NCBI GenBank assembly: GCA_020055645.1 | Contig: CM034546.1 | Location: 25,792,001 to 25,856,000, forward strand | DNA from: Tomocerus qinae | Taxonomy: Eukaryota; Arthropoda; Collembola; Entomobryomorpha; Tomoceridae | Direction of reading: 5' to 3' | DNA length: 64,000 nucleotides | Shown: positions 20,560-64,000 of the stretch, piece after piece | How positions within the stretch are numbered: the stretch's first letter is position 1 | Layout: the number at the start of each line of letters is the position of its first letter | The notes under the pieces: model-generated | Told to the model about the DNA's origin: nothing | What the model saw: only the letters and a program-made list of their open reading frames with translations | Databases searched by the model: none | Made by a program: the position numbers and the translations under genes

Positions 20560-22353
20560 TTTTAAATTTTAAAAGATTCATTCAAAATATAACATAATAT
20601 TTTCTAATTAACTTCTAACATTGTACGTAATAATAAATACAAAGTAAGGATCCTAAGGGTTGATGGACGATTCAAAATGAACAAAATTTCATAATTTTGC
20701 AATTAAATGTTACAAGACCACTATTTAAATTATAAAAACGAACTTTATGGGTTGCATTTCGTTGCAATATTGAATGAGCATGCATGGTTGTATATATATT
20801 AGAAGACTTTTAGAAAATAATGTTCATTTGCCGTAGCCTTCAGATATTATTGACCCAGTTTAAAACTCATATTAGAAGGCCATTCAATGGACTACTCGTT
20901 ATGCTATTTATAAGATACTAGTGAACCCAGCTAAGGGGGCAAATCTAGCACTCAAGAGAAATTCAGCAGGCCACGCATCACAGCAATAAAAACAATTTCG
21001 AAATCATCCCATTAGGTTATTATGTTAACTTTGTAACTACAAAGTATATTTAAATCAATATACTTTTATTTTCTACAGTGGTAGGCAAAATTAGCTGCAG
21101 CCCCAAATTCCTGATAAAAAGGAATTTCCTACACGAAAACAATAACTGTAGATCAAACAGAAACAGTAGCATCAAACAGAGAACAATGAAAGACTCTATT
21201 TTCGAAAAAGCTCGCACAAAGTTACCAAAAAGCTCCCTTTGAAAATCAAAAAAATTCGATTCCCCGTGGAATTTTGGAAAAACATACAAAATCCATGAGT
21301 ACAACTGTACAACTTACGAATAAAATATTTTTAAAGAATAAATAGTGGTACCCAGTACGGTTATTTACTTTAATTCTACAAAAAGATGTCGATGTCGCAA
21401 CTGGCAGGAAGGAATCAAGAGGGTAGTAAAAAGTAAACCCGGCTCTACTAAATAATGTTGAATAAGTTTGTCGATGTAGCAGAACCAATTTGGATTAGAA
21501 GTTTTGAAATGCTATTTAATACGCACATTACTGTCATTACGAAATGACCTCTTTAGCTAATCATTTAATTTCCATTCGATCACCCCTCACATTCAACCTA
21601 TGTTTTCTATTATTATTTTGATGTTATAATAGTAATATGAAACAACTCATTTCGTTGGTTTAGAGGAATCGGGCTTGCGCATTTGGCTTTTTTGCTTTTA
21701 GGGAACATGCATATATTACGTTTGGAGTTGATGGGAGGAGGAGGTACTCAAAAGTGTTGCAGTCAGCACTAAGACGTTACACATGTGGGAGGGGGTTTTG
21801 CTTTACGTAATATATGCAGGTTCCCTAGGTTCTCCCTACCACACGTACATATATATATATATAGACAGGTAAATTTATCAAGTCTACGATTATATATAGA
21901 GATTGAAATTTTAAACAAGTGTGCATACTTCATACTTTTTTGATATCCAGCTATCTCTATATGAATTTACAGTTGAATTCCTTATTTTTAACAATAGTTT
22001 TGTGTTCCTAATTATGGTTGATTATATATTTTATAATGCTCTTTAACTCGTTTTACTATTTGATGATTCTGGAATGGAATAACAATCTATCAATAACAGA
22101 AGTATCCAAATTTGTGTGAGTGGCTTTACTTACTTTGCTTACAAACAATCACATTACAAGGAATAAATTACATATTTTTAAGGGAAAGAGTATTACAATT
22201 TATTTTACCAAGTCTTTTTTTGACAATCAACAATATATATTTACTGATCAACTATTATCAGGTGCTCTTTATCTATTTATATTAATTAACCCATATTATT
22301 AATTACTGTTACATAATTACCTCAAGTATATTATTTTGATACAATTTAACGTG

Positions 22354-22481
22354 GGCCCATATTTTTAATAAACATTCCCATTCTAATCTCCACTCTCGGA
22401 AATGTATGAAATGTATCGAGGTACCTTTCACTCTCGGAAAAGTGCGCAAAAGTGAGAGTCGAATCATTAAAAATATGGGCC
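22354..22481. mobile_element. Small MITE-like inverted-repeat element
   Basis: Perfect 16-bp terminal inverted repeats ggcccatatttttaat (22354-22369) and its complement (22466-22481) flank about 96 bp that contains a second pair of actctcgga / gtgagag words. No target duplication was fixed. Confidence 0.55.
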
Positions 22482-23007
22482 TTAATTTTAATTTATATAA
22501 GTTTTAATCAAGCATAATGTTGGGCTGATTAAAGCTGTGATTTCTGGTATTTACCAATTTTTGCGAAATTTGGAGGCTAGTTGACAACTCGTCTGTATTG
22601 GTAGTCCAAAATAACGATTATTTCAATTGGAGTTTATTTATTTAATCACACTATTCTGACATCTACTTCATGCTAAACATATGTAGTCATTATCTACACT
22701 TCCATTTCATTTATTTTCGCTAATATTTTTGTGGTTAAAAACTTTTCAATAAAAAAGTTTGTTTTCTGAATATGTGACAACTTTAAATTTATCTTGCTGG
22801 TAATTGCTTTTAATGGTATTTATTATGATAACATCGAAAATAGCAAGCACCCTAAATTCTAGCTTACTTTATTAGAATTAGTGAACGGATATCAAGCAAA
22901 TAATATAGGATATGGAATTTAATTAAATGAAATAAAGGCAAGGTAAACGTTTATATAATATTCATTAAATTATAACTATCATTTATTATTTAGAAGGATG
23001 ACGAATT

Positions 23008-24670
23008 CTAAACATTTATTGACATGAGTAATGTAATTGTGTTGTATACGACGAAAGCAAAAATATTTATTAATGTACTTCGTTTAATGAAAAAGTAGTT
23101 ATGTACTCCTACCTTTAAATGGAGCAAGGCTTTTAGTTCTCGTGCTTGTAATGGATTACAGATAGGACGCCAGGATTGTAAGAATGTCGTTGAATTTTCA
23201 AACACGAGAGATGCGACGTGGGTGACAGCACCAGTAGCAATTGTAATGATAACAGACATAGTTGGCATGAAAAGATAAAGGGTGCTGTCAATCAAGCCAT
23301 AAAGCTTAATGCTACAATAATTGACAATAAGAAGAGCTCCAATTACGACAGCCAAAATTAGAGATATTGATACTCCGAAGGTGTGGTTAGCCAGTTTGTT
23401 AATATACAATTGTTGTTTGTAGATCATCTTTGCCTTTTCGAATTCTCTCCTGATTCGTCTCTTTTCCATGTATGTCGATTTCCAAAAGTTTTCAATATGT
23501 TGTCTGCAAGGTGTGATAATTTGGAGCCATTCGAGAGTAGAAAACAGATAAAACATAACACAGTGTACATACAATAAAATAGCTAGCCCGATATGAATTC
23601 CGAATGGAAAAATTGTAGCAAACAAAACAAAACGTACTGCAAACATTCTTTTGTATGTTGGTATAATATATGAAATAATTAATGATAAAGGATCTAGTTC
23701 TATATATATTAACAAACCGATGGCTAATACCATCATTGAAACCATTATTGGAAGTGTCGTTGGTGCAGCAAGTGATGATAACTGAATCATTGTTGAGCGA
23801 GTTTTAATTGCATTTGTTCCTATAAAGAAATAATAGAAATCATTTAGTATATTCCATAGAAGTATATTATTAAGTTAAACGAAGGAATGTGCCGGTTCGA
23901 TTAGAAAGTATATGAATGTACAGCCTGTAAATTATGTAGCCAAAAATCTACATTTTTAGCAGATTGAAGGACATTTAACAATTTGCGGTAAGCTTGATTC
24001 AGATAATTGTGCCCACAATAATAATAGTGCTTTAAGAGAATTGGCCCTGGCACACTCGTCTTTACCTAACAGGTCATAACAATCATGCACCATAGATATC
24101 CTACGGAATATATATAAGTATTATAGTGTATATACCCTTTTTTATTCTCCAATAAAAATAAAAATGAAATTATGTCTGGTATGGTAATTAAGAGTACGAG
24201 CTCCCATTTACAGATAATACAAACAGTAATGTAAAATTAGTCGAAATAATATTAGCACTGATGAGATTAATATACAGGTACATTATGTAAAATTAGTTAA
24301 ATTTATTACGTGTGAGGATCGAGTTGCTTTGACATAGGCAATTAAAGGTTTGTATTGCATGTTGTCGATAACAAATAAAAGGAAGAGAAAAAGCGTCACC
24401 AGCAGCAATACCAATGATAAAGTAAATTACAAACATAATTTGAGACGCTGTAAGGTATGGCTCTTTGTAAATTTGTTCCAGAAGCAATCCCACGAAAAAC
24501 AGACCGAATAAATTTAATACAAGTCCAGCGTACAAGCTAAAACGATCACCTTTGTTTTTTCCTGCTGACACTTTCCAATTTTTTGGGTCAAAAGTAATAG
24601 GACTAAAATTAAAAAATTTGCAAACGTTGAAAAAGCGTTTTAATTCTTGTCGAATATCCTTTGTACTCAT
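23008..24670 (-). CDS. GR-like chemoreceptor of a second subfamily, two exons
   Basis: Predicted 390-residue multi-pass chemoreceptor. Exons 24310-24670 (361 nt, from MSTKDIRQEL) and 23008-23819 (812 nt), joined by a 490-bp phase-1 intron (donor gtaata, acceptor tttatag). Start: an in-frame Met nine codons upstream (24697) also exists, and I prefer MSTKD without strong proof. Several hydrophobic segments are visible (LVLNLFGLFFVGLLL, LILAVVIGALLIVNY, FAFVVYNTITLLMSI). The C-terminal layout HLKVGVHNYFFIKRSTL followed by VYNTITLLM matches the GR tail but lacks a true TYxxxxxQF, and there is no separate last exon. AATAAA follows the TAG stop within about 30 bp. A copy of exon 2 lies at 48012-48823 with 13 amino-acid differences over the 260 residues from MIQLSS. 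The GR-superfamily call is inference from architecture. Confidence 0.75.
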
Positions 24671-25704: not shown

Positions 25705-26388
25705 TTAATAGTTGCTAATTGATTTAGTGAATAAAATTAATAATATACCTGGTCGTATTCGATCAGTTCAGCCAATAGCTAATGTAAGATCTTTTTAGTA
25801 TATTTACGCAAAATGAAGTGTTTCTCAAGTTGTACTATAACAGACGCACACACAGCTTAACGCAATTTTTATTGACTGAATACCATAGTTAATGCCTATT
25901 TAATTTATGATTTTGTATTAGTTTTGTATATGATAACTACTCTATACAGCCATATAAATGTAGAATACCAATGCTTGCTAAAGTACTATCAGCCCATTCG
26001 TGATAGTTTTAGGAATTGATAAAATTGATAAATAGTAAATAACATACGAAGACACGTAAGCAACTTCTCATTGGATTAAAGAAAAGAGGAAAGCGATGTT
26101 GATGTTTGATATTTTCCATTTGTATGTGGAACTGTTGTAAACAATAAATAATAAATTACCTATTTCGTTAAGCATTTCAAAACATATTCCCTTATTATTA
26201 CATTTACCGAGAATTGAAGACCATATTTATACTAGTTTCTGGAAACAATTCACCATAAGGAAATAGTTCCTGTCAGGAGTAAAGTATACCTGTCTGTTCT
26301 CATCATTTAAAAGGAATTGGGAAGTCGAATTTATTATATGGTTGTGGCTGTGATTTTTATTACATATAATAATCTACATTGCACGTAT

Positions 26389-26602: not shown

Positions 26603-27575
26603 GCACGTATACAGAATTAAATTTCGGGGGGACGTTAATATTTTATTATATATTACATATACTATTTATTCGCGCACAGGCGTAAATGTATACAAAAATG
26701 CGTTGAAAATTCTTTTAACAAAAATTAGTCAAGAATGTCCTAAAATGGCAAATAATCGCCCTGGCCGAAAAATATTTGCTTATTTGAGAAATCATTTCTG
26801 TTTCCTTCCTTTAATTTTGAATGGTGTCTTCAACCCGTAAAGCGCCCCTTCTCAATATGTCCTTGTAAGTTATGAGTATTGGGTATGATACAACTGCTTT
26901 GGATAATTTTTTACATATCATTGATTATATTTCTTCTGGTTATGACAGACAATTATGCAAAACCTATACTAATAATAGGAACAATTTCCATTCCCAATAC
27001 ATCTCTTGACATAATTATATGGTATTCAAACATAATAACATAATTATAATATTATAATCAAGTAAATGTACACTTTGTATATTTACTTTATTGTGTTTCC
27101 AAGAAAACATTCTACATACATAAGTATATAAAAGTTTATTTGGCAATTGATTACACAACAACTAGGCACAGATATTTACCTATTTAAGCTTTAAGTATTT
27201 TATAAATCTGAAGGTTACACTTATAAATAGAAAAAATAAAATAAATTTAACAGTAACTTGCTTTATTATTTTGGAAAAAATTATAATAATTTTTATATTA
27301 TAAACATGTAACGGCCTGTGCATAAGTTTTACAAAATTTTGAGATGGTGTGCACATTTTTTATCCATTCCTGTTGAACAATTTAGGTTGTAGCAATCACA
27401 TTCAACTGCTTAACAATTTTAATTTAATCAACTTATTAGGGCATTTAAGAATTGTGTTATTCGTACTCCATATTTGCTTAATTTTTGATCAATATTGAGT
27501 AATATGTCACTGTTTCAAATTTAGGGTAAAAAATCCTTATATATTGTACATTTATGGCTAAACCGTTACAAATAT

Positions 27576-28980
27576 ATTGGTTGATACTGAATAAGGAGAT
27601 ATTATAAGGCCCGGAAAGCCCATAAAAAGCTGCACAAAAAACATGCATACGACACTATTCCCAAAATGCGACCCAAGGCCGATAGAATTTTTTGAAAAAA
27701 TGAAATACATTGATGGAGTAGGCAAACATGACAATTTCAAAAATCATTTTGACAAACTTGGCAGGGGTTTTTGGTACTTTTGATTACATATTCGGAAAGA
27801 GGGTGATGTTTTCAAAAAAAACCTTGGTTTTATGTTGTTTTATGAGTTGTTATTGTTTTATTGCCCTTTAAAGGTACTAAAAACAACGAACATCGATATA
27901 GGGGGATGAATTGTTTCGAAACTTCGAGAATTATTACAGTCAAGTCCAGGTGCATAGAGAAGTAAATGATTTTCGGAAGTAAATAAATACCAACTACCTG
28001 ACCTGACCAGGAAAGGCACTATTTTATTACGGTGATTTAGATGGATTAAAGCTAAATATTAAAATTGAAACATTAAAATACAAACTGCTATTCCACGGAA
28101 TTTATACTTACTTTATAGGCAAATACAGCGATATTTATGTCATTCATTTATCTACATAATGTGTGTTAAGACATTTACATATTGTGGGTTACACTGCAGA
28201 CATTTGCTATGGTTTGTTTCTTATACACCGTACCCATTTGTATGTACTCTCATTTTTTTATTCTGGAAAAATCACCCACTGTAATAAATAATATACCATG
28301 CTTGTAGTGCGAGTATACTATAATTTAGAGCATTTGTGTCACAACTGAAACCGTGTCATCGCAGTTTATTTTTATTGAGTTATATAATAAAACTTTGTGT
28401 TAGAGGTTTCAGTGTTGGATGGACAGATTAATTTTTTACGAATTCTCATAAATCCAATGATGACAAAATTGGTATACATTCATGAACAAATTATACCTGT
28501 TTAAATTAAGGAAACAATGCGTTATTGAATGCTGAAAACTTGAAGAAAGTGATGTACTTATATGGGATTACACACTAATATTATAGTCACCACTTGTAAT
28601 GTAATGAAAAATTATTTTAACGAAAAGCAATTATATTTCCTTTTCTACCTAATAAACCAATAATTTTATGTTTTTATTTAGATTTTCAATTTAAAACTAA
28701 GCACAATATACAAGTTATCTAGTTTTTCTGATTATTTATCAATTTAAGATTATAGCATTAACCTTCCGCTTAACTCAGCAAAGTAAATTTAAACTACGGG
28801 CAACACGCATATCTACTAAATGAATCATGAAGTAACCATATTATATTATGGTATAGCTTACCATTTTCCTTATAAACTACGTGTTCATCTAATTAATAAT
28901 TAATTAATAATTATATAATTAATATAATCCAATCTAAACTCTTTTTATAACAATGGTAATAATATCAATCATTTTGTCTA
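27576..28980. other. AT-rich spacer, no gene seen
   Basis: It starts where the similarity to unit 2 stops (after atggctaaaccgtt) and ends at the transposase pseudogene. The minus frame at 27558-27740 is not recognised as any protein. No repeat ends were found. Confidence 0.4.
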
Positions 28981-28983
28981 AAT

Positions 28984-30740
28984 GAATTGCTACGAACTTA
29001 AAGGGATTCATCACTGTTGTTTTCAACCTCAACTTCCTCTTCATTGTTTTCAATATTTTTATCCTCTGGCAGTTCCTGCCTCCCTACTTCCAGATTATTT
29101 TCTTCGAGATACGCATCATGCTCGTCAAAGTCTTCGCGTAACAATTCTTGTCTTTGTAGAATCATCTCCTCATAGTATCTTGAAAACCCAAGATACCAAA
29201 TGACCGAGGCTACGTGAGCACAGCATTCGAAGATTCAGGCTCCAGCTTTACCTTTTTTTAACAAAAAATATAAAACAATGATTGACTGTATTATTTACTA
29301 GTTAAAGAAAGAAAATTGCCTTACATTTGCAGTACCAGCCAAGAATAACTAATAAATTAACCCAGAGAGAATGATTTTTGTTAGAAAGTCTGGATTTCAT
29401 GTTTATGCGGAGAAGGGTCTCATGCACCCTGTGATACCCAGAAGATGAAATAAGACCCAGAAGCTCAATGTCTTTCGGTGTAATGTTTGACTTGCTTAAT
29501 TTGGTAAATGCCAAAAGTAATGGACAATACTTCTTCTTCCGTTAAAGTACGAAAGTCTACAACATTTTCTGCAAAAATATTTCGCCAACTCGTTGTTCTA
29601 AAACTTATAAGACCCTGATCAATCAGTCTTTCTTGTATGAGATTAGGCATATATTTCCTATTGAGCATAGCATTGGCGATTTCCATATCTTCAGGAGCGT
29701 TTGTAACAGCTGGGGATCCAAATGCATTTAGTATGGCACAAGCTACTTTCAGATATTTTTGCATGTTCGGCAAATATTTTAAATCGACGACAATGTTGAA
29801 AAACTGAAACTTCGATTTTAATCTTCCATTAATAGCCTCCACAACTTATTTTTGTAACCAGGCGCGATTCGTTAGCTTCAACATAGTTGTGTTGCTTTTG
29901 TCCTCTTCCTAAGAAATGAGGCATTTTGGGTAGAAAACCTAAATTCCTTGCTAAACCATTCACATACCGAAATACTCGGTCCGACACCAAAATATCGCCC
30001 TCTTGGAAAAAGTTAAGAAATCCGTATGGATTTTAGGTCATATTTGCATCATTATTCTTTCGATCGCCATAAAAGCAGGAATCAACATCTAGTATTTTAC
30101 CCGTGGGCAAAATAACCATCTTGGCTTTCACCAAGTTTCGGAATTTATGTTCACTATAAGTAGATTTTTGTTCAGAATGTCGACTTGGCGTCTGTATGTA
30201 AATATATGTGCCGTTATAGGTTGGTCTGGGCCAGTTTCGCAAAGAATATTTGCCATATCCGTTTGCCAATTTGCAATATAGTCTTCCTGTGAAATGTGGC
30301 TGTAACCTAGATGTTGACGTACTAAGTGATAGTAGAGTAAATTCAAAACAGCACTCATCCTGTTTTGGCCTTCAAGACCATATAAAACTGAAAGGGCCGA
30401 TTGAGACACTCATATTTGCATTTCATCTTATTGTAACTTATCGATTTCATCAATTTCATCCTAAATGCAGCCACAGCATTATCTATATATTCTTTTAGAG
30501 TTTCTCATATAAGGCGAGATAGAGTCGGTGATAGTAACAAAATCGGTTTTGTTAATGCCCATTAGCGAATGAAAATCTTTATCAGTTAGCAGAGCGTCTT
30601 CAACAAATTCTATCAGCGGTCGCCTGTAGTTCCTGAACTTCCTGAAGTGTTTGGATTATCCGAATTTTCCACACCATCGACAGGTGCGGCGGTTCCTGTT
30701 CCTCCTCGAGGTCAATCTGGTGTTCATCGTTTTCCCCATC
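28984..30740 (-). pseudogene. DDE transposase pseudogene with SWIM-like zinc finger
   Basis: Reading the minus strand across several frames gives, in order: an acidic/Gly-Ser-rich leader (about 30730-30600); FVEDALLTDKDFHSLMG; YSEHKFRNLVKAKMVILPTG; ILVSDRVFRYVNGLARNLGF (the Asp of a DDE site); MEAINGRLKSKF (Glu after a W/V-E-A-x-N-G-R-x-K block); a WYCKCK then CCAHVASVIWYLGF pattern, i.e. CxC...CxH as in SWIM zinc fingers; and an acidic tail (LREDFDEHDAYLEENN) ending at 28984. This order fits DDE_Tnp_4-like (Harbinger/ISL2EU-type) transposases that carry a SWIM domain (family recalled, not searched). At least three frame changes and internal stops show it is dead. Terminal repeats were not identified. 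Confidence 0.78.
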
Positions 30741-30959
30741 CTCGTGAATCTCACTGATAAGCCTAGTTATTTATAAATAAATTGGTAGTTACTACAAGAA
30801 AAATGCAATCTTATTGATTCAATTAATGTCGTATTATTTCCTAAGTAGATTACAAAGGGGATGACACCAGTCTTATGGAGTTCATGGACCGACAGATCGG
30901 AATGGGATTAATATATGTTGTAGCCCTTTTCCTCTGAGCAATAGTCATTATTGTCGAAA

Positions 30960-32200
30960 TTCAATATGGGCTACCGTTCTCGAGATATCTGTGGTCAAAA
31001 ACTGCCATGTTTAACGTTAGGGGAGCAATCCGGCAACATCATACCAAAGTCCAAATCAGACCACACCGAACGCCCACGAAATTAGACGGTGTTGGTGGAC
31101 GTATTTATTCCACATCATACCTAAATTTAACTTTCGCCATAAAAGACGAAACTTTCACCCATATTTTCTCCGTGCATGAGACTCTAAAGCACCAATTACT
31201 AAAATAAGACAATACAATTTGAAAACGAACCTCATGAAATCCAGTACATCCCAATCCCTATCGTTTTTAACTCTCCAGACCCAACAACCAGAACCCATTA
31301 CAACGAATTCGACTATATCGAAAATACCCTCCAAGACCAAGACGATACTTCACACACATAACGACTACGAAACAGAATCAGAATCTGTATTTCCCCTTTA
31401 CTCAAATCAGCATTCAAGATTCAGAGAGGTCAAAAAAAGTAACCTTTCTCCCTGAGCCCATATCCATACCAATCGATTCCATTAATCTCCCCGAGGAACC
31501 AATAATCAACGACTCACTCGAAGACCCTATTTGCGTTCCTCTCCTATAATTACATTTTCGCTCAAATATTCCGTTACCCCTCGGCCTTCCCCTTCATGGC
31601 TCGTCACTTAGTTTACATGTGCAGCAATCGCCCATGGGGGGCAATCTTTTTTCCAACCACGACTCAGTCCAATCTGGCCAATCTATTTGCCCCTCCCCAC
31701 CTCCAGGCACCTCCTCGTCTTGTACACTTCGTACTGTAATCGCAGTAGTGCCACCCGTCCCTGACGCAACTCCAGCCACACAACCCCCAGAAGTAACCCA
31801 GAATGATTCATCTGGTGATACTGTAGCAGCTCCACAAACCAGGGATTTACCGGTATCGTCTCCCGCTCCCGCCATCAGCTTCGCCTGAACACCGTCCTAC
31901 CAGCTACTCACTACACCTCCACGGACACTATCGCCGCCGTCGCCACCAGCTCCGCTTCCATCGCGCAAAAGGAAGTCTAAGAAACGACATTCCAGAGACC
32001 GCCGAACCCGTCGCTCCCCCTCACCGTCATTCTCCGAGGCGTCTACCATCATCGTGACGCCAGAAATGTGGAGGCATCCATCGTCTTGGCTTCCACCGAA
32101 AACGCCCCTGCAACGACGCAGGCCACTTCAAACAGGAGCTGTAGCAAGCCTCATCGAGCCTCAGTATTTTTATCGTCGTGTTCAACAGATATTTTAATTT
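30960..32200 (+). pseudogene. Possible LTR-retroelement ORF remnant, unclassified
   Basis: One plus-strand frame keeps coding-like sequence over about 1.2 kb with a few stops and a short shifted section. Part one (31007-31205) includes TKLDGVGGRIYSTSYLNLTF and TFTHIFSVHE, which loosely resembles the retropepsin region of Ty3/gypsy-type polyproteins. Part two (31439-31547) reads PISIPIDSINLPEEP. Part three (31613-32197) is Pro/Ser/Thr-rich, with one in-frame TGA at 31886-31888, then an Arg/Lys/Ser-rich block (SRKRKSKKRHSRDRRTRRS) and ends YFYRRVQQIF. Base composition is clearly more GC-rich than the surroundings. The AT-rich DNA at 32200-32900 could hold an LTR but no paired LTR was seen. The retroelement call is tentative; it could be another mobile or foreign gene. 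Confidence 0.35.
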
Positions 32201-33009
32201 CTTTATTTCCAAACTTTCTTATAAATTAATTACTTATAAAAAAACGTCTTATAAATAGATATAAATACGAATAAGAATAAGATATAAATACCGATCTTTA
32301 TTCTGAAAAGGCTAGTCATTTTCATTTTTCACTTAACTTCTATTCAACTCCGCTCAATGTAAACCCTACTCTTTCCTTCCTACTCTACTTTAATTAGAAC
32401 TCATTTATCATCAATATTGTAATTCGCAATTTATCTAATAATAAATAAATACCTAAAAATCGACTACACCACCTTAACTCAGCTTAACTCATTCCGGCAA
32501 CCGGCATACTATACCAGTGCTACCCGTTCTTGTCACTCTGCACCATAGATAGGCACATACAATATCTGCTGTGATTTGTCAGCTTAGCCCAACCCTCACT
32601 CGGTCATTGGTTGCTTTTGCTGTATTCTTTCTACCTAGCTGTTCCATGTAAAGTTTCCAGCACTTTATACATGAGAAAGCATGCGTACCCTTTTCGTCCC
32701 TTCGGTATATGCATATAAGCCTTATATCTATATGAACCCTTCTTCATACAAACTCTGCGTGGCATTGGTCCGCAGCACAATGCCGTCGATTTTGAATGAA
32801 GAATTAAAGTGATATAGACTATAGTCTTATTTAAACGGAAATAAAGTCATTCGTTTCTAGAACGTTCTTCCCCCTCTTTATTGTTCTCCAATTCTTTTGT
32901 TCTCATAGCTGCGTCCCTTCTTAAACGATCACTAAGGGTTCCCCTTTTAAATACTTCATTCGCCGAAATAAATGCAATGGTAGACATTCTCTTATCAATA
33001 TGTAATAAT

Positions 33010-33275
33010 ATTGTAGAATTCTTATTATTATGGTACCGATGCATAGTCCAAATGTAGAATGCTTATAATATTGACACAGATCCATATGTTAAAGTAGAAT
33101 CTTATAATAATATTACAAATCTTAGTGTAATATAGTAGAAATGCTTATAATAGTATTCTAAATCTTAGTATAATATAGCAGAAATGCTTATAATCATGTT
33201 ACAAATCTTGTAGAAAAGTAGTATAATTCTTATAATCATGTTACACATCTTCAATAAAATTAGTAAAATCTTACA
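33010..33275. repeat. Degenerate ~43-bp tandem repeat
   Basis: Recurring units with atgcttataat...ttacaaatctt...agtag; for example gaaatgcttataat at 33138 and again at 33181. Copies drift by a few bases. AT-rich and non-coding, just left of the 3.3 kb element. Confidence 0.6.
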
Positions 33276-51093: not shown

Positions 51094-51824
51094 TAAACTA
51101 TAAGTATACTTATTACAGATAAATTTATCTAACGGCATGGCTCAGAATGTTTAATTTTTAGAATTGTATTTTAACAACTTGGAGTTTATTTTTCGACAAC
51201 ATAACTGCATCCATAACCTAGCTTTTTATAAAGATTTACTCAACACAATAGGATAAATTACTCAAATGACATTTACTCAATTAGTGAGCAAGATTTACTC
51301 CACCCATGGTTAGCTCAACTTTTAGACAACAAATTTCTCAATAAGAGAGTAAAATTGGCTCAAGTGTTTTACTCACGTCTATTAAGCAAATTTTGTTGAA
51401 CGGTTGAGTCAGCGCATTTTGTATTTAAATGTTGAGCACCAAATCTTCAAACTTCATTAAAATATGCTGAAATTTTTATGGTGAGATACACTATATTCCA
51501 GTGGTCGTGAGTTTTTTGTAAGTTTTCTTATATGCTTTTATTTGCTTTAAAAACCAATCACTGTGCTAATGTGCAAGCATTTTGAAAAGATTATTTTCAT
51601 AATTTTGTAAAAACTCCCTACTAAAGCAGTTACAAAATACAGCAAAAGTAAAAGGTCCGCATAAAATTAACACCCAAGTAATCTATTTAATCAATTAAGT
51701 TAGGTCCTCTCTTTTTAATGCTGCATGGTTCTGTTGACAAATGTATAAATAATAATCGTAATAAGAGAATTTAAAAAAGTATCCAATGGAACTTTGATTT
51801 TCAAGAAATGGTTTATCATTTACA
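51094..51824. other. Unit 2 spacer between blocks A and C, no gene
   Basis: AT-rich, no coding signal. It occupies the position that holds about 12.9 kb in unit 1. Confidence 0.4.
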
Positions 51825-53330
51825 AAAATTGTAAATTACTCGAAAAAACTTCATTGGAGTATGAACATAAACGTTTTATATCATTGTGAATACTAGTCAA
51901 CAAGCAAGGTTAAGACATAAGAATATTATGTATATTGGATTTGGATTTGTAACTTGTATTTTTCAGTTAAGAATGTCTTCCAGCTTACGAAAACTTTCAT
52001 TATAATAAAGTATTAATAACTTCAAGTGAATTAGTAATAAAATACCATAAATTTTTAAGCATTCCAGTTAGCTTTATTATTGTAGGTATATGCTGGCTAA
52101 TGCTGCCTAAAGAAGTCCGAGAAACTTGCGTGTTTCTTTATTTATTAAACTGTGAAAGTTATACGAATGTGTGCTGTAAAATTTGCCCATCGTCTAACGA
52201 AGAGTAACATTACACAAAGGTTATTTTTACATTTCAATCTAAGCTGCTACTACCCCATATAATAAATATTACAGTCATTATTGATCGTCACTACTGAAGG
52301 GTAATATGATCATTTCTTTTTAACATTTTTCAACAACATTTTTATGTAGGATTAAAATTGACTTACGCAGTTTTAGGTGAATCCTAGGTGTTACATTTTA
52401 ATTGAATTAAATAAATCATTTAACGCCAAGATTGTTGCGAATTCACAAATTGATTTATGAATAAAAAAATATGCCTAAATTGTGCCTAATGTGTTACATA
52501 ATATGTAATAATTATAATATAAGAACAACGAAATTGTGATATATTTATTTTTCATGCCTTGAAAAGTCATATTATGACTTATGACGCATTATAATGTACA
52601 TTCTACTATCCAACTACAAACCATTATGGGGTTAATACCGTTTTCATAATATAATGTATGTAATAAAATCTGAACTTGCAAAGTAGCAATTGTAACACCA
52701 CCAATTGACATTATTACAGAACTAATAGTGTAGAGAATTTCAAGAAAGGAATACATTACAATAATATGACTCCTTAAATCTTTTCGAAATATTTCGGATT
52801 GGAACCCTTTACTTGTAGAAAACGAAGCCGTTGTTAGCCTATGCCCTCCCTAATACTATTTTTTTTAAATTTCAGTTTCGTTTTAACTTTGCCTTTTGAG
52901 AAAATATTCCCTAGATGGAAATGTACTTATATAAAGAGTATTGAAAATAATGAGGAAACGTTTAACAGAAAATTCAACATGGTATTGTAGTAGACATCAC
53001 CATTCATTTGAGTCGATCCTGTTGTCTATTTATATTAATAGGTTTTACTCTTCCACATATATTTCGATCAGGGTACCTAATTGCAATTGTTGTTATTAAT
53101 TTACGCTTTTTAAATAGAAGTGTATTCATATTGATAAAAAAGTAAAATTGCATGCATTCTTTGTTTCAAAGTTTTATACTATTGTCATATATTGTTCATA
53201 AAAATGTATTCACATTTGTAATTTTCTTTTCTGAAACTATCTAATTCAAAGCAATTTGACAGGAATCACTGCAAAAACGTGGGTTGCAATTTATCTTTAG
53301 TAGAACGAAAATAGTTGATGAAGGAATTCT

Positions 53331-55725
53331 CTAGTGAAATAGGTCAACTACCATTGAAAGTAGTAATTTTGCTACTTTCTTGGCTGCTTTCAGTAGAACA
53401 AAACATAAATGGACACCTATTTCTTTCAATGACTTTCTAGATTCCCACAGAAATGCAATGGCGAATACAAGTACAAGGGTCAAAAATATAAAAAATATGG
53501 TACCGATATTCGAGTTACGAAATGTCAAAGCTCGCACTAAAGGTCTCGACCAGCATGTTTTGCACTCTGTGAAATTCCATCTATTATAGTATTCTAACCA
53601 CAAGTTAAAAATTCCAGAGTGCATTATAATGTGCAGATTTTGTCGAAGAAAAAAGGAAAGCATGGGGTATGGGGTTAGAATAAGAAATGAATCCGGAATA
53701 AACAGGTATGGATAGAACAGAGTTTTCTTCCCTTCCGCGATATAATTGATGAATCGGTTCAACTCCACCATTCTTAGGATTCCAGTGAGAATCGTTGAAA
53801 ATCCGATGCAAATTTAAGGATGAGAGAATCAGGGCTGAATTATTGCATTGAGCTATCCACTGTTGGAAACTGTTTTTGTAAGGAAATCCAGGATACACCT
53901 GAACCTTTTCCTTCAGCTTTAATAACATTTCTTTATTAGGTAAAGGAGTGGAATCGGAAAGCCCGGAATATTTTAACATTACAAAGATCGCATATCGAAA
54001 TTTTAAAACGGAATCTGATGACAAAGCAATAGCTTCCCGAATCACTTCTTCAACTATTGCCCGACCTATCATATCTAATTCGAAATCTCCCCGTTCTAAT
54101 TTTGCTTTGCAATATGATAAATTGTGCTGACTTGTACCATTGAACCTCAAACAGTTTTCGTAGTAACAATGAAGATGGGTTTTTTGCATTTCCAGATCGA
54201 AATGGAAAGGATCTAAGTCATTTCCAGTAGATAATTCTCCAATGACCGTAACATCTGTTAGATTTGCTAACTGTTCAATGGATTCTATTTGCTTTACCGG
54301 ACGTGGCTGTACTAAATCTGTAATAACTATTCCCTTGTAACCGTTAGTCAATACAATGAGCATTAACAGCAACGGACCGATGACTAACTTGATCCATAGA
54401 GTTTTATCGGCTTTTGGTGACAGGGAATAACTAATTTCCAACATGTATGCATAGCAAATCATAAGAAATGGAATACTTTCATCCCTTTTGCAATATGTCA
54501 CTCCGTGAACGAAAGCAATTACAATGGACAGTGTGGCAATGATTCCGAGCCAAGCGTAGGTTTGAAAAGGTCGAATGTAGCCATAGAAAGAGAGACTTCC
54601 ATCTTCTAAAATAACACAGGAAATGAAATTGAAGGACTCCTCCATGATTGGAAGTATGTCAACGAATGGACCAAAATGTTGAGTAAAAATATTCCCAGTT
54701 TGTTCGAACAAAGTAAACTTTCCATAAAATAGAACTGATTTGTAATGCATAAAATCATCATTGAAGATTTGGCCCATTGATATAGTGGAATTTGGAGATT
54801 TTTCTAATATAATAGAAACAATGGGGAGAGATATTTTATGAAATTCTTCGAAGTGATAAGTTGTTACATATATGTTGGGCAGAGGAGGACCATAATAAGA
54901 CGACTTGTATGGATATGATCCTCCATAGTCATAATTTACAATGAAAAATTTCTGCACAAAGTTGCTTTTCTCTATGACATCTTTCAAAACCATTTCACGC
55001 AGTGGTCGATTTATCAGACAACGTTTATTGGAAAATAAGGACCACATAGAGAACGAATGTTGATCGTAACCAATAATCTGTGGCCAAATCAAATATACAC
55101 TTTGGCTAATTACATCTGATAAGGACACAACAAACCAGGCTTTCGTCCGAAAGTAAACGTAGACATCAACATTGGAATATGACTTTGCGATCTCAAAAAC
55201 ATTTTTGTCAACGAGCATGTACACAGAAGAATATTCCGCCCAATTGTACATTATATCCATATCCGTTTCTTGATTTTGTGTTACGGAATTGAAAATACTA
55301 GACTCACTGCTGATATAATTTATTAATACAGTATCTGTATAATAGGCTGGATCCAAATTAAATGCAATGGTCGTGACACAATTTAATCGAGAAGTTAGAC
55401 GTGGAGAGGAAAGCCTGACTCTATTATTTCTGCTAAATTTTCTTTTACATTTGGAGTAATGGCGAGATCTAAGACCGTGTGAATAATATAATTGTTTTAA
55501 ATTGCAATCCTTTTCATTCTCGTCAAATTTTAGTTTTGTGAACGCGTAAGGAATGTCGATTTCTTGTAATTCGTTACTTGAAAGTTCTTCTGATGGCGAA
55601 TTAAAAGATTTTGGTTGCAATATCAAATTAATGTAGCAGTTTTCTTCAAGATGGACAATATCCTTTAGTCTCCATCCAAGACACAATTCTATTAGTATAA
55701 GTAACCACAGCCATATAAGCGACAT
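53331..55725 (-). CDS. Ionotropic receptor (IR) with one frameshift near the C-terminus
   Basis: Single-exon variant ionotropic glutamate receptor-like chemoreceptor. From 55725 the first frame encodes a signal peptide (LIWLWLLILIELCLG), an extracellular N-terminal part and S1 lobe, TM1 (WLGIIATLSIVIAFVHG), a pore region, TM2 (LVIGPLLLMLIVLTNGY) and most of S2. At about 53757-53771 (after HWNPKN) the protein continues in another frame (VELNRFINYIAEGKK) through IIMHSGIFNLWLEYYNRW and TM3 (IGTIFFIFLTLVLVFAIAFL), ending at 53331. One extra base in ggtgg would explain the shift. Both frames stay open, so this is either a young pseudogene or a sequence error. IRs usually act with IR co-receptors in chemosensory neurons (family knowledge); ligand unknown. 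A remnant of a second copy is at 41459-41548. Confidence 0.85.
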
Positions 55726-56669
55726 GTTTATGGACCCTTTGCACGTTTATGAAAGGAAGAAAACCATTATTAATTGTTAATGATTTTGTCTTTCATAAAA
55801 AATGGTTTTAACGTAAATAAATTTTTGGTTTTATTTTTACAAATATTTTAGGGAATGTAAGGTTTCAATGATAAAACTTGTAAGTCGAGTTTGACTGAAT
55901 GGTTTACACTTAATGTGAATCTTATGTGTTAATTCAGGCACGTATCCAGAAATTTGATGATGAACACATTGGATGAACACACCAAACTAAAATAAAATCG
56001 TCACATTTATTTACACAATTTTTTTTACAGTTTTAACGCTTTTGAAAGAACAGATCTATTTTTCTGGGAATTCGGGGGGAGTTTGTAACCTGGCACCCCT
56101 TTATAAACTTGCCTTCCTGGGTATAATACATTAAACCACTTCTCACGAATAACTTTTAGTGATTAATAAGCATTTATGTTTTAAGTAGATTGCCAAGTCA
56201 TGTTTATTTTATTAAGTTACGTATTTTTACCACGTAAGTAATTGCGAGTCAAATACATTAAGCTAATAGCGAAGCCCGGAAGCCAAGTTGTAAAAGATAC
56301 ATTTAGCTGTATTTTAAGTGACCAAATTTATTTTAGGAATGAAATTTAATTATATAGGATATATAATTTTCTAAATTCCCAGTGTCGCTTTATTTTCATT
56401 TAATTTTCACTCTAATTACTTCACCTTATTTTACAATTGGCTATCTATCACCCTTTTCACTGAATCATGCATAATACTTGAAACGGTGATCCCGATGAAG
56501 GTAAAAGGGATCTCGATAATCGGTAAAGGATGATCAGCCACTTACAACGGAAAAATCTACAAATCGAAGCTTGCTTCCTTTATAATTCATTCTTGCAGTC
56601 TTCACTTGTTTTGATTCATTGTTATTTTTGTGAAATTTTATCTATAAATACAATTTAATAATTCCAGTA

Positions 56670-57089
56670 TTAAGGTAAAAGACTTACCCGCCTAAGTAAA
56701 AAAACAATAACTGGACCAGTTAAACTGGTGCCAGCTTTTATAGTGAGATTGCCATGTCCCTGAGGGTCAACTGAGTACAAAATATTTACAAGCAAAATAA
56801 AAGTGGTAACACTGTAACCGTCGCAGTTATTTAAGTATAAGTAATATTCGCAGTTTTTCGAAAAATGACATGCCTTAGATAAATACATAAATTCGTTAAG
56901 CTTGGAAAACGCGGCCGAATTTAGGCAGCGGTATGCGGTATCTCCTTGCCGTTGTTGCCGGTCCATATTGTAGTCAATTGATCTTTTGCCACCAGTAACA
57001 CCGGCATATAGAAATACTAGTTGAAACCTAGCACATAAGTTGCGTTGGAAAAATGTTAAAATATGTAATATTCTATATAGCGACTGCAT
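56670..57089 (-). CDS. Small ORF or first exon, unrecognised, 134-139 aa
   Basis: An open frame from MQSLYRILHILTFFQR, with a mildly hydrophobic beginning, a short Cys-containing middle (KACHFSKNCEYYLYLNNCDG) and a hydrophobic FILLVNILY segment. A strong donor (gtaagt, exon end 56688, phase 0) precedes the stop, so it may be the first exon of a longer gene. No homologue recognised. The duplicate in unit 1 keeps the middle and the donor but has lost the start by a 4-base deletion. Could also be chance. Confidence 0.3.
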   Translation of the reverse strand: MQSLYRILHILTFFQRNLCARFQLVFLYAGVTGGKRSIDYNMDRQQRQGDTAYRCLNSAAFSKLNEFMYLSKACHFSKNCEYYLYLNNCDGYSVTTFILLVNILYSVDPQGHGNLTIKAGTSLTGPVIVFLLRRVSLLP

Positions 57090-57818
57090 TTATTAGCCCG
57101 AAATTTAATGACAGGCCGAAGATTTCAACCGCATAAAATTTCATTAATTCTTGGCGCCGGCTTACTAAGAAGAATTTCAACCATCCCTCTGTTTATTGTG
57201 CAATTCCACCTCAGTTTTATACTAATGGTATGATATAGATAAATAGGTAATTGATGAACAACTTTTGATAAACATCCCATCCAACCCATCATGGCATCCA
57301 AATGAGAAGGTATTGGTTCTCATCCAGCACACCGAACATACTAGATATCAAAGCTTAGCAGCTTAAAATATGCTGAAATTTTTATAGAGTGATACAATGA
57401 GTTCCAGAGTTACCACTATAAGGCCCACTGTGCAGCTTTATTAATTGCTTTTTCGGGTAAGCTATATCTAAAAACAGCAGTTATGTGCAGCTAGAAATTA
57501 TTTTCAAAAAATTTGAAAATTTCCGAAGCTGGAGTAAATGGTAGGAACAAAAGTTTTACGAACTAATTATACAATATCCGTAAGAGTACAAAATAATCAG
57601 AAGATAATAATAATATGTGAAAATATATACTTCGGTCGCAAAACTTTTTGTGCTCAAAACATATTTACACTATGTCTACAATACCTCTGTTTAAAAATCA
57701 TTTCATGTTTTTCCTCTAAAACCTAACTGATCAACCCTTAGAACATTGGACTATTGGAATATGGTGCAATGATTAGTTAAGTAGCTTGTGCTGAAAAGTT
57801 TACTCTTTAAATTGTCAG

Positions 57819-60800
57819 TCATTGATTGGTGGCATTATATATACAATGACAATAATGAGAGTTGTCCATTTTGAGTGTCAGATCCGTTGATGTTGATGCA
57901 TTAAATTGCAGCATAACGAGTAGGTGAGTCAGCAAAACACTTACTGCCTGTTAAATTACAAGTGAAAACATTTAATTGAAGGTGGAATTAATGGGTCACA
58001 GGAATCAACATTTTTTGAAAATACTCACCACTCCAAGAAATCCAAAAGTGACCGTAAAGAAGTCGCCAGCTCTGACTCCTAAGTTAAAGCCACTTGTATC
58101 CACATACCAAGCGACACAGTTCAAATATGCACTCCGTTCGCGGGTACAGCCAACTGCTTTAAAATCAATTATTTCCACCGCCATTTTCTCGATATAAAAA
58201 TCTTTAAAGTTTCTCATCTGCAATATATTATAATATAAACTCATTAAAATTGTAATTATTAAAATTTATAAAAAACTATGGATTATCTACTTTTGCATTT
58301 AAAAATTCGGAAATTGATAGCATCTGCTTACAGTTTACAGAAAAGATCAAAAGTTAAGCGTTACGTTAAAAATTATGCTAAATTATTACATTTCTCTCGC
58401 ATGCTGCCGCCCACCAAAAGGTTAAAACGATGTTCGAAACGTAAACAGCGTAAATGAGCCGCCTTTCAACTGAAAAATTGCTATTTAAAACGTCAAATAT
58501 TATTTCCACCAAATAAAAGTAATTGGGAATGAAATTCAACACGAATAAGTTTCCAAATATGTAATTCACTGTAGATGCCATGAATTTAGCGTGATGGAAA
58601 TTATCAACTGAATTTTCCGCTGCCACTTTGGGGTTGCATGTGCCAATAATTTCATAGATTGCTAATATTCCACAGACATCGAATATGTGTGCAATTTCAT
58701 AAAATAGATATATTAACATAAACATAAAATTTATCACAGCAGTTTTGAAAACATTGAGAGCAGTAAGTTCACTTTTAACTTCCTCTTCATGTTTGCTTTG
58801 ATAAAGCGGACCATGAGTGAATTCAGTACTCATATTTTCATTGTAATAAATTCCTCCATAAATATCACTTTGATACAATAGAAACGATAACAGAAGCTCA
58901 AATCCAACCCATGTAGAAATTCCAACTGACAACTGCAAAATGAAAAAAGTGCTAACTACAATAGATTACTGACAGGCATTAGTTTTTACTATATTATTAT
59001 ACTTTATATATTTATATATACATATTTTTACTATAGTTAGTACTATATTATTATTATTCATTATCCCTATCACTTCAGCATAGCAATGCTTCTGTTGGTG
59101 GATGGTGAATAATGAACCTCTATAGTATACTCAGATAACTAACCATAACCCGCCGTTTTTGTTGAATCGAGTTCATTCTCATTTTACCCCGAAGGCTAGT
59201 TTCATTTGTTTTTAATCGGCCAAGCCAAGGATTTGCCCGCTCGTTTATGGGCTCCTTGACACAAACGCAACTCAAGCTAGCAGATTCTTTTATATGCGCT
59301 TCGGTAATGCCATGCGTTATAATGACTAGATTGCTTGTGTGCATGGCCTATTTCCCTCTACTTCAGCTTAGAGGGATTGCAGTTATTGTGTAGTGCATAA
59401 TATGTTCACTCTGCCTCTGTTTACTGCTTACGCTACGAATACAGATATCGACTATTGTCATAGATGATAGATGGTAAATGTCAATCACGATTTTATGCAA
59501 AATTCGAATTTTAGGAAATTCCCTAAGTATCAGAGACCATACATTAACTGTAAAAAAGATTCATTCCAATACGAATATGTCCCATTTTTTACATAAATTC
59601 TGAACACGTGACTGTATAGAATAGGGTTTTCGATGAATCTTTTTTGCATTTAGTGTATAGATTTAGGATCAATGGTTTCAGATCTTTAAGGATTCTCCTA
59701 AAAAAAGTCAATGAGTAAATACATAAGAGACCACTCAGGCTGGGAACAAAATGTCGCAGCCAAAGTTGTTACTTTCAGATTCTAATCTCATTAGTGATAT
59801 GAAAAAACCAATTTCAGGATTTTTTTGAAAACCCGCCGCTTAAAAGTTATGGCGGGTTTTTCGCCTTCTGTCGTTCATCTATGATCAAGGCATGAAAAAG
59901 GTTGCCTTTTTGCTAGCAAAAGGCAAAAAGCCACCTTTTTGTGCTTTTTGCCTTTTTGGAGTAGTCACCGCCACCTGTGAAACTTCATTGAAGCTAACTT
60001 TTGTAGACTGTCCAGTCCCACACATTCAAATATTCAGATAAATTGGAAATGTTAGTTTTTTGTATTATTAAACTATTTATTACTAATGCTACACAATTCA
60101 AATTAACTATAATGTATTTGTGACAAACCGTATAATGAAAAATGAGCCAGACCATATATCTGCGTATTGTGTACAATATTATATGTGATATACCAACAGC
60201 CAAATCCACTATTTGACTGTTACCAGTTAGCACAGCCCAAGGTTCTGGTTTTTTTCTCATGTTTTTTAAATTGCTTACAATTTTAGTTTGTTGTTTTCGA
60301 TTGTTTTATTGTCTAACGAATGACCGAATTATTGAAGATAATTAAGAATTACTGTTATTCAAAATCGTAGTATTTCTTTTTCCCATCTTTGAATTTCAAC
60401 ATGTCAATAGCTAATTACCCCATTTAATAGCAAAAAGGCAAAAAGGTAGCTTTTTGCTGATTTTGCTAGGCAAAAAGGCAAGCAAAAAGGCAAAAAGGTA
60501 GCTTTTTGCCTTTTTCATGCCCTGTCTATGATTTATTTCTAAACCACTTGACTGATTTTCATGAAACCGGCGCCATTCTTTACGCAAACGCCTTCCTCCC
60601 ATGGGCCCTTTTTTAGTTCTTCAAAATATTTTTAAAATTATGAAAAAAATTTCGAAAAAGTTGGAAAAAACTTTATGAACCTTTTTAATAGAACTATTAA
60701 TAAATGCTACCAAAAACTCAATAATGAGGGTGTGTATATCAAAAATGAAACCATTTAAATGAATGAACAAAAACCACTATTGAGTTTTTGGTTGCAATAA

Positions 60801-62389
60801 CCATTTTTATCGCATTTAATAATAGTTCAAATAAAAATGTTCAAAAAGGTTTTTTTCGAGCTTTTTCAAAATTTTCATAATTTTGAAAAACTAAAAAACG
60901 GCCACGTAAGGATAAAATTTGCAAGAAAAATGGTGCCGGTTTCATGAAAATCGGTCCAGTAGATTAGACATGAATCATAGATGAACTATAAAAGGTGGAA
61001 AACCGCCATAGCTAAAAGACGGCGAGTTTTCAATAAAAATCCTGAAATTTGTTTTTTCATATCTACATTAGATATCTACATTAGTATCAGAAAGTAACAA
61101 TTTTGGCTGTGGCATTTTGTTCCCAGCCAGCGTGATCTCTTATGTATTAACCCCCTCCTTAAAGTATTCTTACATTGTCAATGGATAGCCCCTAATTTCC
61201 TCTAAATTTATCGTTTTTTCAAAATCCATTTACCGATTATGGCACAGAGTGCCAAGACCAAAAACCAATAGATTTCATTCCTCAAATAGTGTTCTTTGAT
61301 ATACAGTTGGAATTTTTCTTGGCACTCTGTGCGTTTAGAAGTTACGAAATTTCAAAAAATTTCGATTTTTTTTGAAAAAAATGGAATATCTTTTAGGTAT
61401 TTTACATTTTCGGGTTTTTGAAAGTCACAAATGGTAAAAGAATACCTAACATAAAGTCATTTGTGAGTTATTCCCGTTTTTTATCACTAGATAAGTGTTT
61501 TTCAAAAAACTTTCGAAATTTTAGGATGAAATCGAAATTCAAATTTCTCAGTCAATTTTTAATCTAGGACGCCCAGATTTTTTGCAAATGGGCTAAAATT
61601 TTTCCCTTCTTCATTTAGTTACAGTTATTCCGGGAATGGCGAGACATCAAAAATCAACTATTTGAATTTAGCTACTAATGGCTGGAATGCCCCCGAATTT
61701 AAATTTAAATTTCGAATTTGAATTCGGACATTTAAACACATCTTACCTTTGGGTTCAGTTTTGATTGGTGGTTCCCTGTTAGATTGACGATCTTTAGCAA
61801 ATGCCCTTGTTTCCGCCAACAGAAGTAACAAAACGCCGTTAGTTGCACCAAATTCGAAAATTCGGAAAATATTTGATAGAATTTGGAGGGGTTGATTAGA
61901 AGATTTTCTTCGAACAATGATTTATTGTAACTCATATCGCCAAATACCGCCAACGTTTGTATTAAAATACAAAATATCTAAATCAAATGTAAATCGTAAC
62001 GTGGTTAAATAAATTTTAACGTTTTAGGTCTATTAAAATTTGCTAATTTGTCATATATACGCAACTATGCTGACACTTTTAATGGTAATGTTTTTATATG
62101 TGAGGAAAGATACATTAGTGATTAACATTTTTACATAGTTACTGCTTTATTAATATTATTTTAATTTACAAAAAATACGTACCTGTTGGAAACTGTTCTT
62201 TTTAATATAGTATTTGCCGTCCTTTGGACAAAATTTAAATCGAAATGGAATACAACCCATGTAGTATAGAACACTTATGACACGAACAATTACAATTGGG
62301 TAATAATAATAATAAAGGTGTGGTTGTGGCGATCTTTGGACAAATAATTTATTATCAGCTTTTCGACGAAAAACAGTTTTAAAAAACAT
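57819..62389 (-). CDS. Gustatory receptor-like gene H, complete, very long intron 2
   Basis: Five-exon GR-like receptor, about 432 residues. Exons: 62183-62389 (69 codons), 61747-61977 (77), 58390-58932 (181), 58029-58217 (63) and 57819-57947 (43 with stop), all phase 0 with GT-AG borders. Exon lengths equal those of gene D exactly, and the two are closest relatives. Exon 1 starts MFFKTVFRRKAD and contains IPFRFKF. Exon 4 ends RAGDFFTVTFGFLGV. Exon 5 reads LLTHLLVMLQFNAS, the GR signature with His for Tyr. Intron 2 is 2,814 bp against 70-170 bp in the other genes, because it holds a fold-back element with a nested MITE. No coding damage is seen. Its 3' part is duplicated as the broken copy at 43695-45367. 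Confidence 0.87.
59715..61155. mobile_element. Fold-back element in GR gene H intron 2
   Basis: Left arm 59715-59885 plus 60525-60729 pairs with right arm 60774-61155: shared ggctgggaacaaaatg, aatttcaggattttt, gttcatctatgat, gattttcatgaaaccggc and ccaaaaactcaataa words appear inverted on the right. Together the arms are about 370 bp with moderate divergence and a short centre. The left arm is interrupted by the hAT-like MITE at 59886-60524. Confidence 0.8.
59886..60524. mobile_element. hAT-like MITE, 639 bp, AAAAAGGC-type arms, nested
   Basis: Ends caaggcatgaaaaagg and (inverted right) cagggcatgaaaaagg; exact 8-bp target duplication tctatgat (59878-59885 and 60525-60532). Arms are arrays of aaaaaggc / gcctttttg words. 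The ends are the same family as the MITE at 26389-26602 although the arm repeat differs. The frame at 60411-60602 is an artefact of the repeat. Confidence 0.88.
61242..61332. repeat. Perfect 16-bp inverted repeat
   Basis: gcacagagtgccaaga (61242-61257) and its complement (61317-61332), 59-bp loop, just outside the fold-back element in the same intron. Confidence 0.85.
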
Positions 62390-64000
62390 TTTTATTATTT
62401 GCCCACGCCAAATTAAGTTGTATTTAGGAGTACAGTACAGTGTCCTTTTTTTATGGTAACAGTAGCTTAATTGCAGTTCGTAACATAGTTACAGTCCGAT
62501 TTAACCCACACACCAAGCATTATCCCCTTTATTTTTTTAACAATAGATATTACTGAACTATCAAGTTAAGGTTAACTCAGACAATCACAGATATTGTCAT
62601 CAATAATATTTATATAAATGTTATTCTGCAATATAAATATAATTATTTTTCTGTCGTTACCATTTGTCCTAAGCTATTATTGAACTTAGTTGTAAGTTGC
62701 ATTCAGTAAAATAGGAATAGTTAATGAATACATATTGTTACAATACTTTTTTAGTTATCCTAACACAATTTTAACGAGTGTTCAAACAACTTATTTTAAT
62801 AAACAATCCGATTTGTAAATTGGCGTGAATGAAATAATTTTGCTTGTTAAAATGCTTCTCTAATTTATTAATAACAAAGTCGAGTTATTCAATTTGTACC
62901 AATTATAGTTCCATACAAATCAAGTATTTGATGGCTGCATTTACATATATACGTACGGCTTATACCAGTTTATGTCAGTTTGGAATCATTAGCGGCGCTA
63001 AATACATGCATATGCAGTCAGAATTGTGTTTTAAAATACAAGGTTATCAAAAGCATTCTATGAATGTCTTCATATATAGTTTTGAAGAGGTAACGCAGAG
63101 TTACGCTTTAAAAAACTTATAATCTGCGTGTCCGTGTTAGGATTTACTGTACAATATGATGCCAATAAATGTTATGTTAACTGATCTACTATTTAAATGT
63201 CATGATATTTAGAATACAAGTCCTTAATTATATAATCCGTTCTAGCAACCTCTTCCCTATCGGCAATTCTAAAATGAAAGGAAAGAACATGAAAAGATTA
63301 AATTGAGGCTACGTGATTTACATGAATCATATTATTATAACTTAAAATTATCTAACGAAAATTTGGTAAATTGCATCTGAAATTTAATAACATCATTCTA
63401 ATTGGTTTTTAGCTTCCTACAAAATATTATGAGAGTCTGGGTCATATTCGGAGCAAAGGTAAATCATCTCTGATTCCGGTTCGAGTCTGAGGCCCCTGGC
63501 CGTGGCCGCGACCGTAGTTTTCTTTTCAAACTTCAAACACTTTTAGTTCTTAAAAAGGTCCAAGATGCAATATTTTATAATATGTCAGAATTATATTTGT
63601 GCACTTATTCATTCCCATTCACTAAATACCCATAAACTGGTTTTAAAAAAGCCACTCTGTAATCTACGAAGTTACTTCAACCTTTATTTCTATATTGTTG
63701 ATTTTTATGTATTGACTTAACAATTCGTTCAACTGGACATCAGGGATAGGATAATTTATACAATAATATAATAATGCTCATTATCAAATCATATTTAGTA
63801 TGGGGAGGGGGGCCGCATCGCAACTCTGAGAAAAAGAGATTTTTTTCTCAAAAAAGGCCTAAAATTACAAAAAAATTCTATTTATGGTATTATTTTTGCT
63901 TCCGCCCCCCTTGAACAAATTTCTAGATACGTGCCTGCTTCAGAATACGGATGAATTGAATGCTTGGAATGAACTAATGAACAGTTGCAGTAGTACAAGC
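62390..64000. other. Upstream of GR gene H to window end
   Basis: No gene recognised. The frame 62844-63122 (plus) is not supported. Positions 63085-63470 duplicate 45400-45775. After 63470 the sequence is unique, with a short GC-rich spot (ctggccgtggccgcgacc, near 63497). Confidence 0.45.

Follow-up and report, generated by a model that had tools for sequence, protein, structure and literature searches.

In the dipluran Campodea augens, 2,424 mostly intronless ionotropic receptors (IRs) have been reported; 901 of them are pseudogenes, most with just one mutation, and segmental duplication was invoked to explain scaffolds that have groups of distantly related genes in common (PMC6938034). The chemosensory families of Drosophila gained genes mostly by tandem duplication and lost them by deletion and pseudogenisation, and some gene conversion between paralogues had a negligible effect on that study's estimates (PMC4122928). 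Here we describe a 64-kb stretch of the genome of the collembolan Tomocerus qinae (C1:25792001-25856000, hereafter the window), in which a cassette holding a two-exon seven-transmembrane (7TM) receptor, a single-exon IR-like gene and a gustatory receptor (GR)-like gene has been duplicated in tandem. The case resembles that of C. augens (PMC6938034), where there is a very large family of mostly single-exon IRs with many pseudogenes, and segmental duplications occur there too; it differs in that a GR-like array here contains a duplicated cassette with members of three receptor-like families. It is like the Drosophila families in tandem gain and in deletion and pseudogenisation, with conversion in some cases there; that study deals with whole genes across species (PMC4122928), and the present analysis with individual lesions and the divergence of blocks at one locus in one genome. 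We consider it likely that tandem duplication of the cassette was followed by birth-and-death turnover in both copies, accompanied by probable exchange of sequence between them. Tandem gain, independent pseudogenisation and deletion were all found, and the locus fits as one more case of the ordinary birth-and-death turnover of receptor families. Literature searches on reciprocal loss with chemoreceptor segmental duplication and on conversion limited by heterology were narrow and leave room for earlier publications on the subject; the former brought up an entry on a polymorphic segmental duplication in Caenorhabditis elegans (PMC2728738), in which the terms tandem segmental duplication and chemoreceptor occur side by side, and the latter nothing that seemed relevant.

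The window has a GC content of 31.8% and contains no N, nor do the 120 kb fetched from its flanks, so that the two units are not separated by a scaffold gap. Self-comparison showed that 22.5-45.8 kb and 46.5-63.5 kb (window coordinates, continued beyond its ends where needed) match on the same strand and are largely colinear. A preliminary description of this DNA, made from the letters alone, had proposed two units sharing the same ordered blocks; this held for the blocks from B to G, all on the same strand, but not for the leftmost block or for the right end. The tandem duplication of the receptor-like gene cassette is therefore real, and its borders need revision. From left to right the chain comprises block B at the left edge of the duplication (22535-22830, plus strand, with 46458-46802; 88% and 93% identity, Kimura two-parameter distance (K2P) 0.089), a block around receptor exon 2 (22854-23871 with 47858-48876), a 55-bp intron piece (24206-24260 with 48874-48928), block C (25803-26380 with 49607-50197), block D (26641-27574 with 50167-51095), block F (40435-41459 with 51814-52861), block G (41460-43957 with 55637-58083) and a piece of the last exon of the GR-like gene (45308-45368 with 58071-58132). 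The order, strand and partners of these blocks establish the duplication itself.

Blocks that are widespread repeats had been named in advance as an outcome that would undo the proposal, and among the blocks tested this was found for the left one. Genome-wide searches covered the 334-Mb assembly of 115 contigs; those with the queries 49000-52861 and 55747-57740 each scored 40 candidates, so that the absence of further partners is not absolute. With the former query, the partners of C, D and F (49607-52861) fall in unit 1; block F has one further partial match (75%, at C1:22.355 Mb), and the stretch at about 50.9-51.5 kb coincides with older repeats. The stretch 55747-57740, upstream of the IR-like gene, has unit 1 as its sole full-length genome partner, its other matches being copies of a repeat of about 350 bp at 57.0-57.4 kb that is present in both units. 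Apart from the repeats inside D and 55747-57740, these shared blocks are not dispersed repeats. The genome query with block B was dominated by matches of the adjoining transposon, and uniqueness was tested for C, D, F and 55747-57740.

The left border had been placed at 20901-21900, paired with 46785-47849 (block A), and this pair turned out to be two separate copies of a repeat. The unit-2 copy is a high-copy transposon lying between block B and exon 2 (46803-47850); all 39 other copies that were scored are 86-97% identical to it, from 3,406 first-look candidates. The copy left of the unit-1 border (20901-21900) differs from it by a K2P of about 0.19 and is a separate, older insertion, the order of block A relative to block B differs between the units, and further copies of the transposon lie in the left flank. 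As a dispersed transposon, block A (20.9-21.9 kb) was ruled out as the start of unit 1. The right end had been put at 63.5 kb, and it too was given up. The tail block of unit 1 (45414-45807, plus strand) has its closest partner outside the window, at 68856-69260, with a K2P of 0.068 against 0.129 for 63080-63469 (which matches the 45414-45776 part), and the latter two differ from each other by 0.122; the query 62500-63700 was found at three places in the genome. On K2P, and assuming a clock, 63080-63469 was dropped as the partner in favour of 68856-69260. With borders set at the outermost blocks having partners in unit 2 or in its extension beyond the window, unit 1 runs from 22535 to 45807; unit 2 takes up 46458-64000 in the window and, on the clock-based reading, would run to about 69260. 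The units would then lie at about 22.5-45.8 and 46.5-69.3 kb, the right border of unit 2 depending on the clock assumption.

The complete two-exon receptor claimed for unit 1 was recovered. On the minus strand, exon 1 (24310-24670) and exon 2 (23008-23819, open and with its acceptor), separated by an intron of 490 bp (23820-24309), splice as 24670-24310 and 23819-23008 into an open frame of 390 amino acids (aa) with GT/AG borders, and the protein has seven hydropathy peaks. Unit 2, as also claimed, has exon 2 (48012-48823, minus strand), open and with its acceptor, without exon 1: none of the 123 genome match rows of exon 1 falls in unit 2. The site of the lost exon is occupied by part of a palindromic transposon, namely its centre and a single arm (48929-49599). 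The nearest relatives among its other copies, 94-97% identical, lie on C1, C2 and C4, and several have two opposed arms. The outer end of this element at 48929 is the first base at which unit 2 departs from unit 1, and its second arm, exon 1 and the upstream sequence are jointly missing. This configuration suggests that the element inserted into the intron and that a deletion then set out from the centre of the palindrome. Another 334 bp of the unit-1 intron (23872-24205) are absent from unit 2; the stretch has no other match in the genome and was rejected as a known repeat, other copies of it not being found there. Exon 2 has at least 135 genome match rows, the densest group of which lies at 20-22 Mb, and its closest relatives outside the window (62-67% identity) lie at 27-30 Mb. 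As a separate observation, the left flank holds a plus-strand relative of exon 2 at window positions -2926 to -2151 (C1:25789074-25789849), with an exon-1 match nearby and seven stops in one of two match rows.

The IR-like gene is damaged in both units. What remains of it in unit 1 (41459-41548, minus strand) is 29 codons of the gene start followed by a stop at the deletion junction, in agreement with the remnant of about 30 codons noticed earlier. A unit-2 stretch of about 2.77 kb (52862-55636) is missing from unit 1, and the motif CAGTTT occurs near both its ends. The single-exon gene of unit 2 (53331-55746, minus strand) had been called near-complete, but near 53660 a tandem duplication of 7 bp shifts its reading frame, which breaks before the last hydrophobic segment. 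This duplication is lacking in all six relatives compared (the closest six of 29 fetched), and unless the assembly is wrong at the 7-bp duplication, the unit-2 copy is broken too. Across the genome the IR-like gene gave 65 match rows with open frames of up to 899 aa; 11 of the 65 have in-frame stops, which makes decay common in the IR-like family.

Unit 2 contains the intact GR-like gene that had been claimed (58005-62389, minus strand). Its four exons (62389-62183, 61977-61747, 58932-58390 and 58217-58005) give an open frame of 397 aa with GT/AG borders, and its 2.8-kb intron bears inverted repeats (59715-61151), the splice sites being kept. In unit 1 the gene is broken, as had likewise been stated: its last exon is split into a left (43668-43957) and a right remnant (45308-45368), both on the minus strand, by a transposon-like insert of 1,350 bp with inverted ends (43958-45307), across the site of which the unit-2 partner sequence is uninterrupted. 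The rest of the unit-1 gene beyond the last exon was not found. A third GR-like gene (9596-12772, minus strand) is intact, lies outside the duplication and shares 75% aa identity with the unit-2 gene (synonymous divergence, dS, 0.53; nonsynonymous divergence, dN, 0.12). A further one at 65.4-67.2 kb, outside the window, has open frames in each of four exon stretches that were inspected; if the unit-1 tail pairs with 68.9 kb, this gene would belong to unit 2, and unit 1 would have lost it along with most of its own GR-like gene. The GR-like query gave 54 match rows in the genome, of which 49 lie at 25.60-26.66 Mb, every one of them on the minus strand, so that the array is one of GR-like genes, in which the other two genes of the cassette ride as passengers. 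Its minus-strand GR-like genes occupy window positions 1-20500 and continue outside the window to 116.7 kb; in the 184-kb stretch examined, 15 middle exons were found, seven of them in the window and eight to its right, with none in the 60 kb left of the window.

Given these lesions, which are read at base level and whose order and mechanism we infer, the history of the locus may be reconstructed as follows. An ancestral cassette, situated inside a tandem GR-like array of roughly 1 Mb, was duplicated in tandem; it comprised a two-exon 7TM receptor, an IR-like gene with a single exon and one or more GR-like genes with four exons. Each copy would then have lost genes independently. In unit 1, a deletion of about 2.8 kb with CAGTTT near both ends would have removed the body of the IR-like gene, and a transposon-like insert together with a larger deletion would have destroyed the GR-like gene. 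In unit 2, a deletion may have taken receptor exon 1 along with half of a young palindromic transposon, and the frame of the IR-like gene was lost through the 7-bp duplication. Exchange between the copies probably holds some stretches at a difference of about 5%, and others reach 12%. The closeness of the unit-2 transposons to other copies (86-97%, and 94-97% for the closest) agrees with a duplication that preceded the losses. Of the genes in the pair, a receptor and a GR-like gene remain intact, each in one copy, and the IR-like gene in neither, and the tandem segmental duplication with decay of both copies, as proposed in the preliminary description, was borne out.

The divergence of the blocks is the part of the evidence that this history explains least readily. 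K2P amounts to 0.040 for the 3′ flank of exon 2, 0.057 for exon 2 and 0.018 for the intron piece, to 0.134 for C, 0.207 and 0.125 for D and 0.126 for F, and to 0.058 and 0.036 for G and 0.051 for the last-exon piece. Segmentation of 6,189 aligned sites returned successive mismatch rates of 0.065, 0.018, 0.122 and 0.053; the rightmost change of rate falls at 41389, and 71 bp separate it from the junction of the IR deletion. F and G differ in divergence (Fisher p = 7e-10). Several points weigh against a simple history. Divergence is uneven, about 0.12 in C-D-F against 0.053 in 41.4-45.4 kb, and where a single event without later exchange predicts uniform divergence in neutral DNA, rates of 0.122 and 0.053 were found. 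The low value is shared by a multi-copy repeat inside G (differences at 17 of 359 sites within the repeat and at 110 of 2,027 around it), so that constraint, which was considered as the cause of the low divergence of 41.4-45.4 kb, is unlikely. One clock-like event without later exchange does not explain the divergence as we read it from the alignments, and later exchange or events of different age must join the single duplication. In addition, unit 1 may have gained the 334 bp of intron sequence or unit 2 may have lost them, and the unit-1 tail would group with 68.9 kb only if rates were equal among the three sequences, in which the sites differing in one sequence alone number 50 in unit 2, 14 in unit 1 and 10 in the outside copy.

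Exchange between the copies might itself follow a pattern. It is possible, though doubtful, that half-dead copies keep exchanging sequence and that large lesions bound the tracts of exchange. The low-divergence stretch running leftwards from 45.4 kb stops no more than 71 bp away from where the IR deletion joins, with C-D-F at 12% on the far side, and this speaks for the idea; on the left side the fit is partial, a 333-bp stretch at 0.018 near the exon-1 lesion ending at the border of exon 2, and the synonymous divergence near 0.2 in the rest of exon 2 weakens it. Within exon 2 the first third has one synonymous change in 64 sites and the remainder 21 in 120, which is no more than suggestive of a conversion tract in the first third, and the adjoining intron stretch is not low in divergence, which speaks against such a tract. 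If lesions do bound exchange, pseudogenising lesions could split tandem receptor arrays into converting and non-converting segments.

The same divergence step might instead reflect two or more duplications of different age, with an older event behind C-D-F (about 0.12) and a younger one behind the GR-like remnant and the sequence upstream of the IR-like gene (about 0.05). The preliminary description had itself named block divergences too different for one event as a ground for abandoning the duplication, and with 0.12 against 0.05, and a significant step near the IR deletion junction, this ground is present in part. However, F and the IR-like gene are neighbours whose order and orientation do not differ between the units, and values alternating along one colinear chain would require several nested events. 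We regard events of different age as unlikely, and block order and partners still favour one duplication with later exchange.

A far less probable explanation is complementary loss under a dosage or subfunction constraint, with each gene kept exactly once. The receptor does survive in unit 1 and the GR-like gene in unit 2, and the comparison of exon 2 between the units gave a dS of 0.130 and a dN of 0.023, an overall dN/dS of 0.175 whose signal is carried by the last two thirds of the exon only. Against this, neither unit has an intact IR-like gene, another close and intact relative of the GR-like gene lies at 9.6-12.8 kb in an array with 54 match rows, and three genes are too few to separate complementarity from chance. 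The earlier statement that each gene survives about once therefore fails on the IR-like and GR-like genes; complementary survival is not supported, and nothing was found in favour of dosage retention. An assembly artefact, in which diverged haplotypes were placed in tandem, would account for each unit occurring in one copy, adjacent and on the same strand, but the uninterrupted sequence between the units, shared-block K2P values of 0.02 to 0.21 (mostly 0.04-0.13) and the unit-specific inserts and deletions render it very improbable.

The labels GR and IR denote resemblance. Gustatory receptors have seven membrane helices in a chain of about 400 aa; the GR-like protein of unit 2 (397 aa) gave four hydropathy peaks at the threshold giving the receptor (390 aa) seven. 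A Pfam scan of ten window proteins returned no receptor family at E 1 for the seven receptor or GR-like exon proteins and the two IR-like pieces, and a weak transposase match for the tenth protein. PF08395 (7tm_7) matched none of those seven exon proteins at E 1, the exons having been scanned apart, which lowers sensitivity, and none of its 46 genome matches lies in the window. A structure model of receptor exon 2 was of low confidence (pLDDT 46.7), and a fold search with it gave no PDB match at E 0.001. Ionotropic receptors have two membrane helices with a pore loop, a ligand half and a third helix. The model of the IR-like protein places helices at 391-412, 418-435 and 441-462, likewise at low confidence (mean pLDDT 38.5). 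None of 22 IR-like members matched the ligand-channel Pfam families at E 1; 12 other Pfam families were matched among them, each in one or two members. A profile of these 22 members retrieved no PDB sequence at E 10, and for the receptor, too, no solved structure was retrieved. The genes look like arthropod chemoreceptors, and by resemblance the surviving ones probably act as such.

At this locus, birth-and-death turnover of a mixed receptor cassette can be followed at base level, the lesions being readable in both copies. It also carries two warnings, that dispersed repeats can pass for the borders of a duplication and that a frameshift can go unnoticed in a frame that is near-complete. The divergence step beside the IR deletion is the only unusual element of the locus, and it provides a small, testable hint on the limits of gene conversion.

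Between blocks D and F, unit 1 contains 12.9 kb that have no counterpart in unit 2 (27575-40434). This stretch bears repeats at least in part: a weak transposase match (DDE_Tnp_4, 29465-29845, E 3e-4) scored 20.8 bits, under the curated cut-off of 24.8, and 40000-40442 is mostly multi-copy. Within the same 12.9 kb, 31180-32197 holds overlapping open frames that are proline-rich in part.

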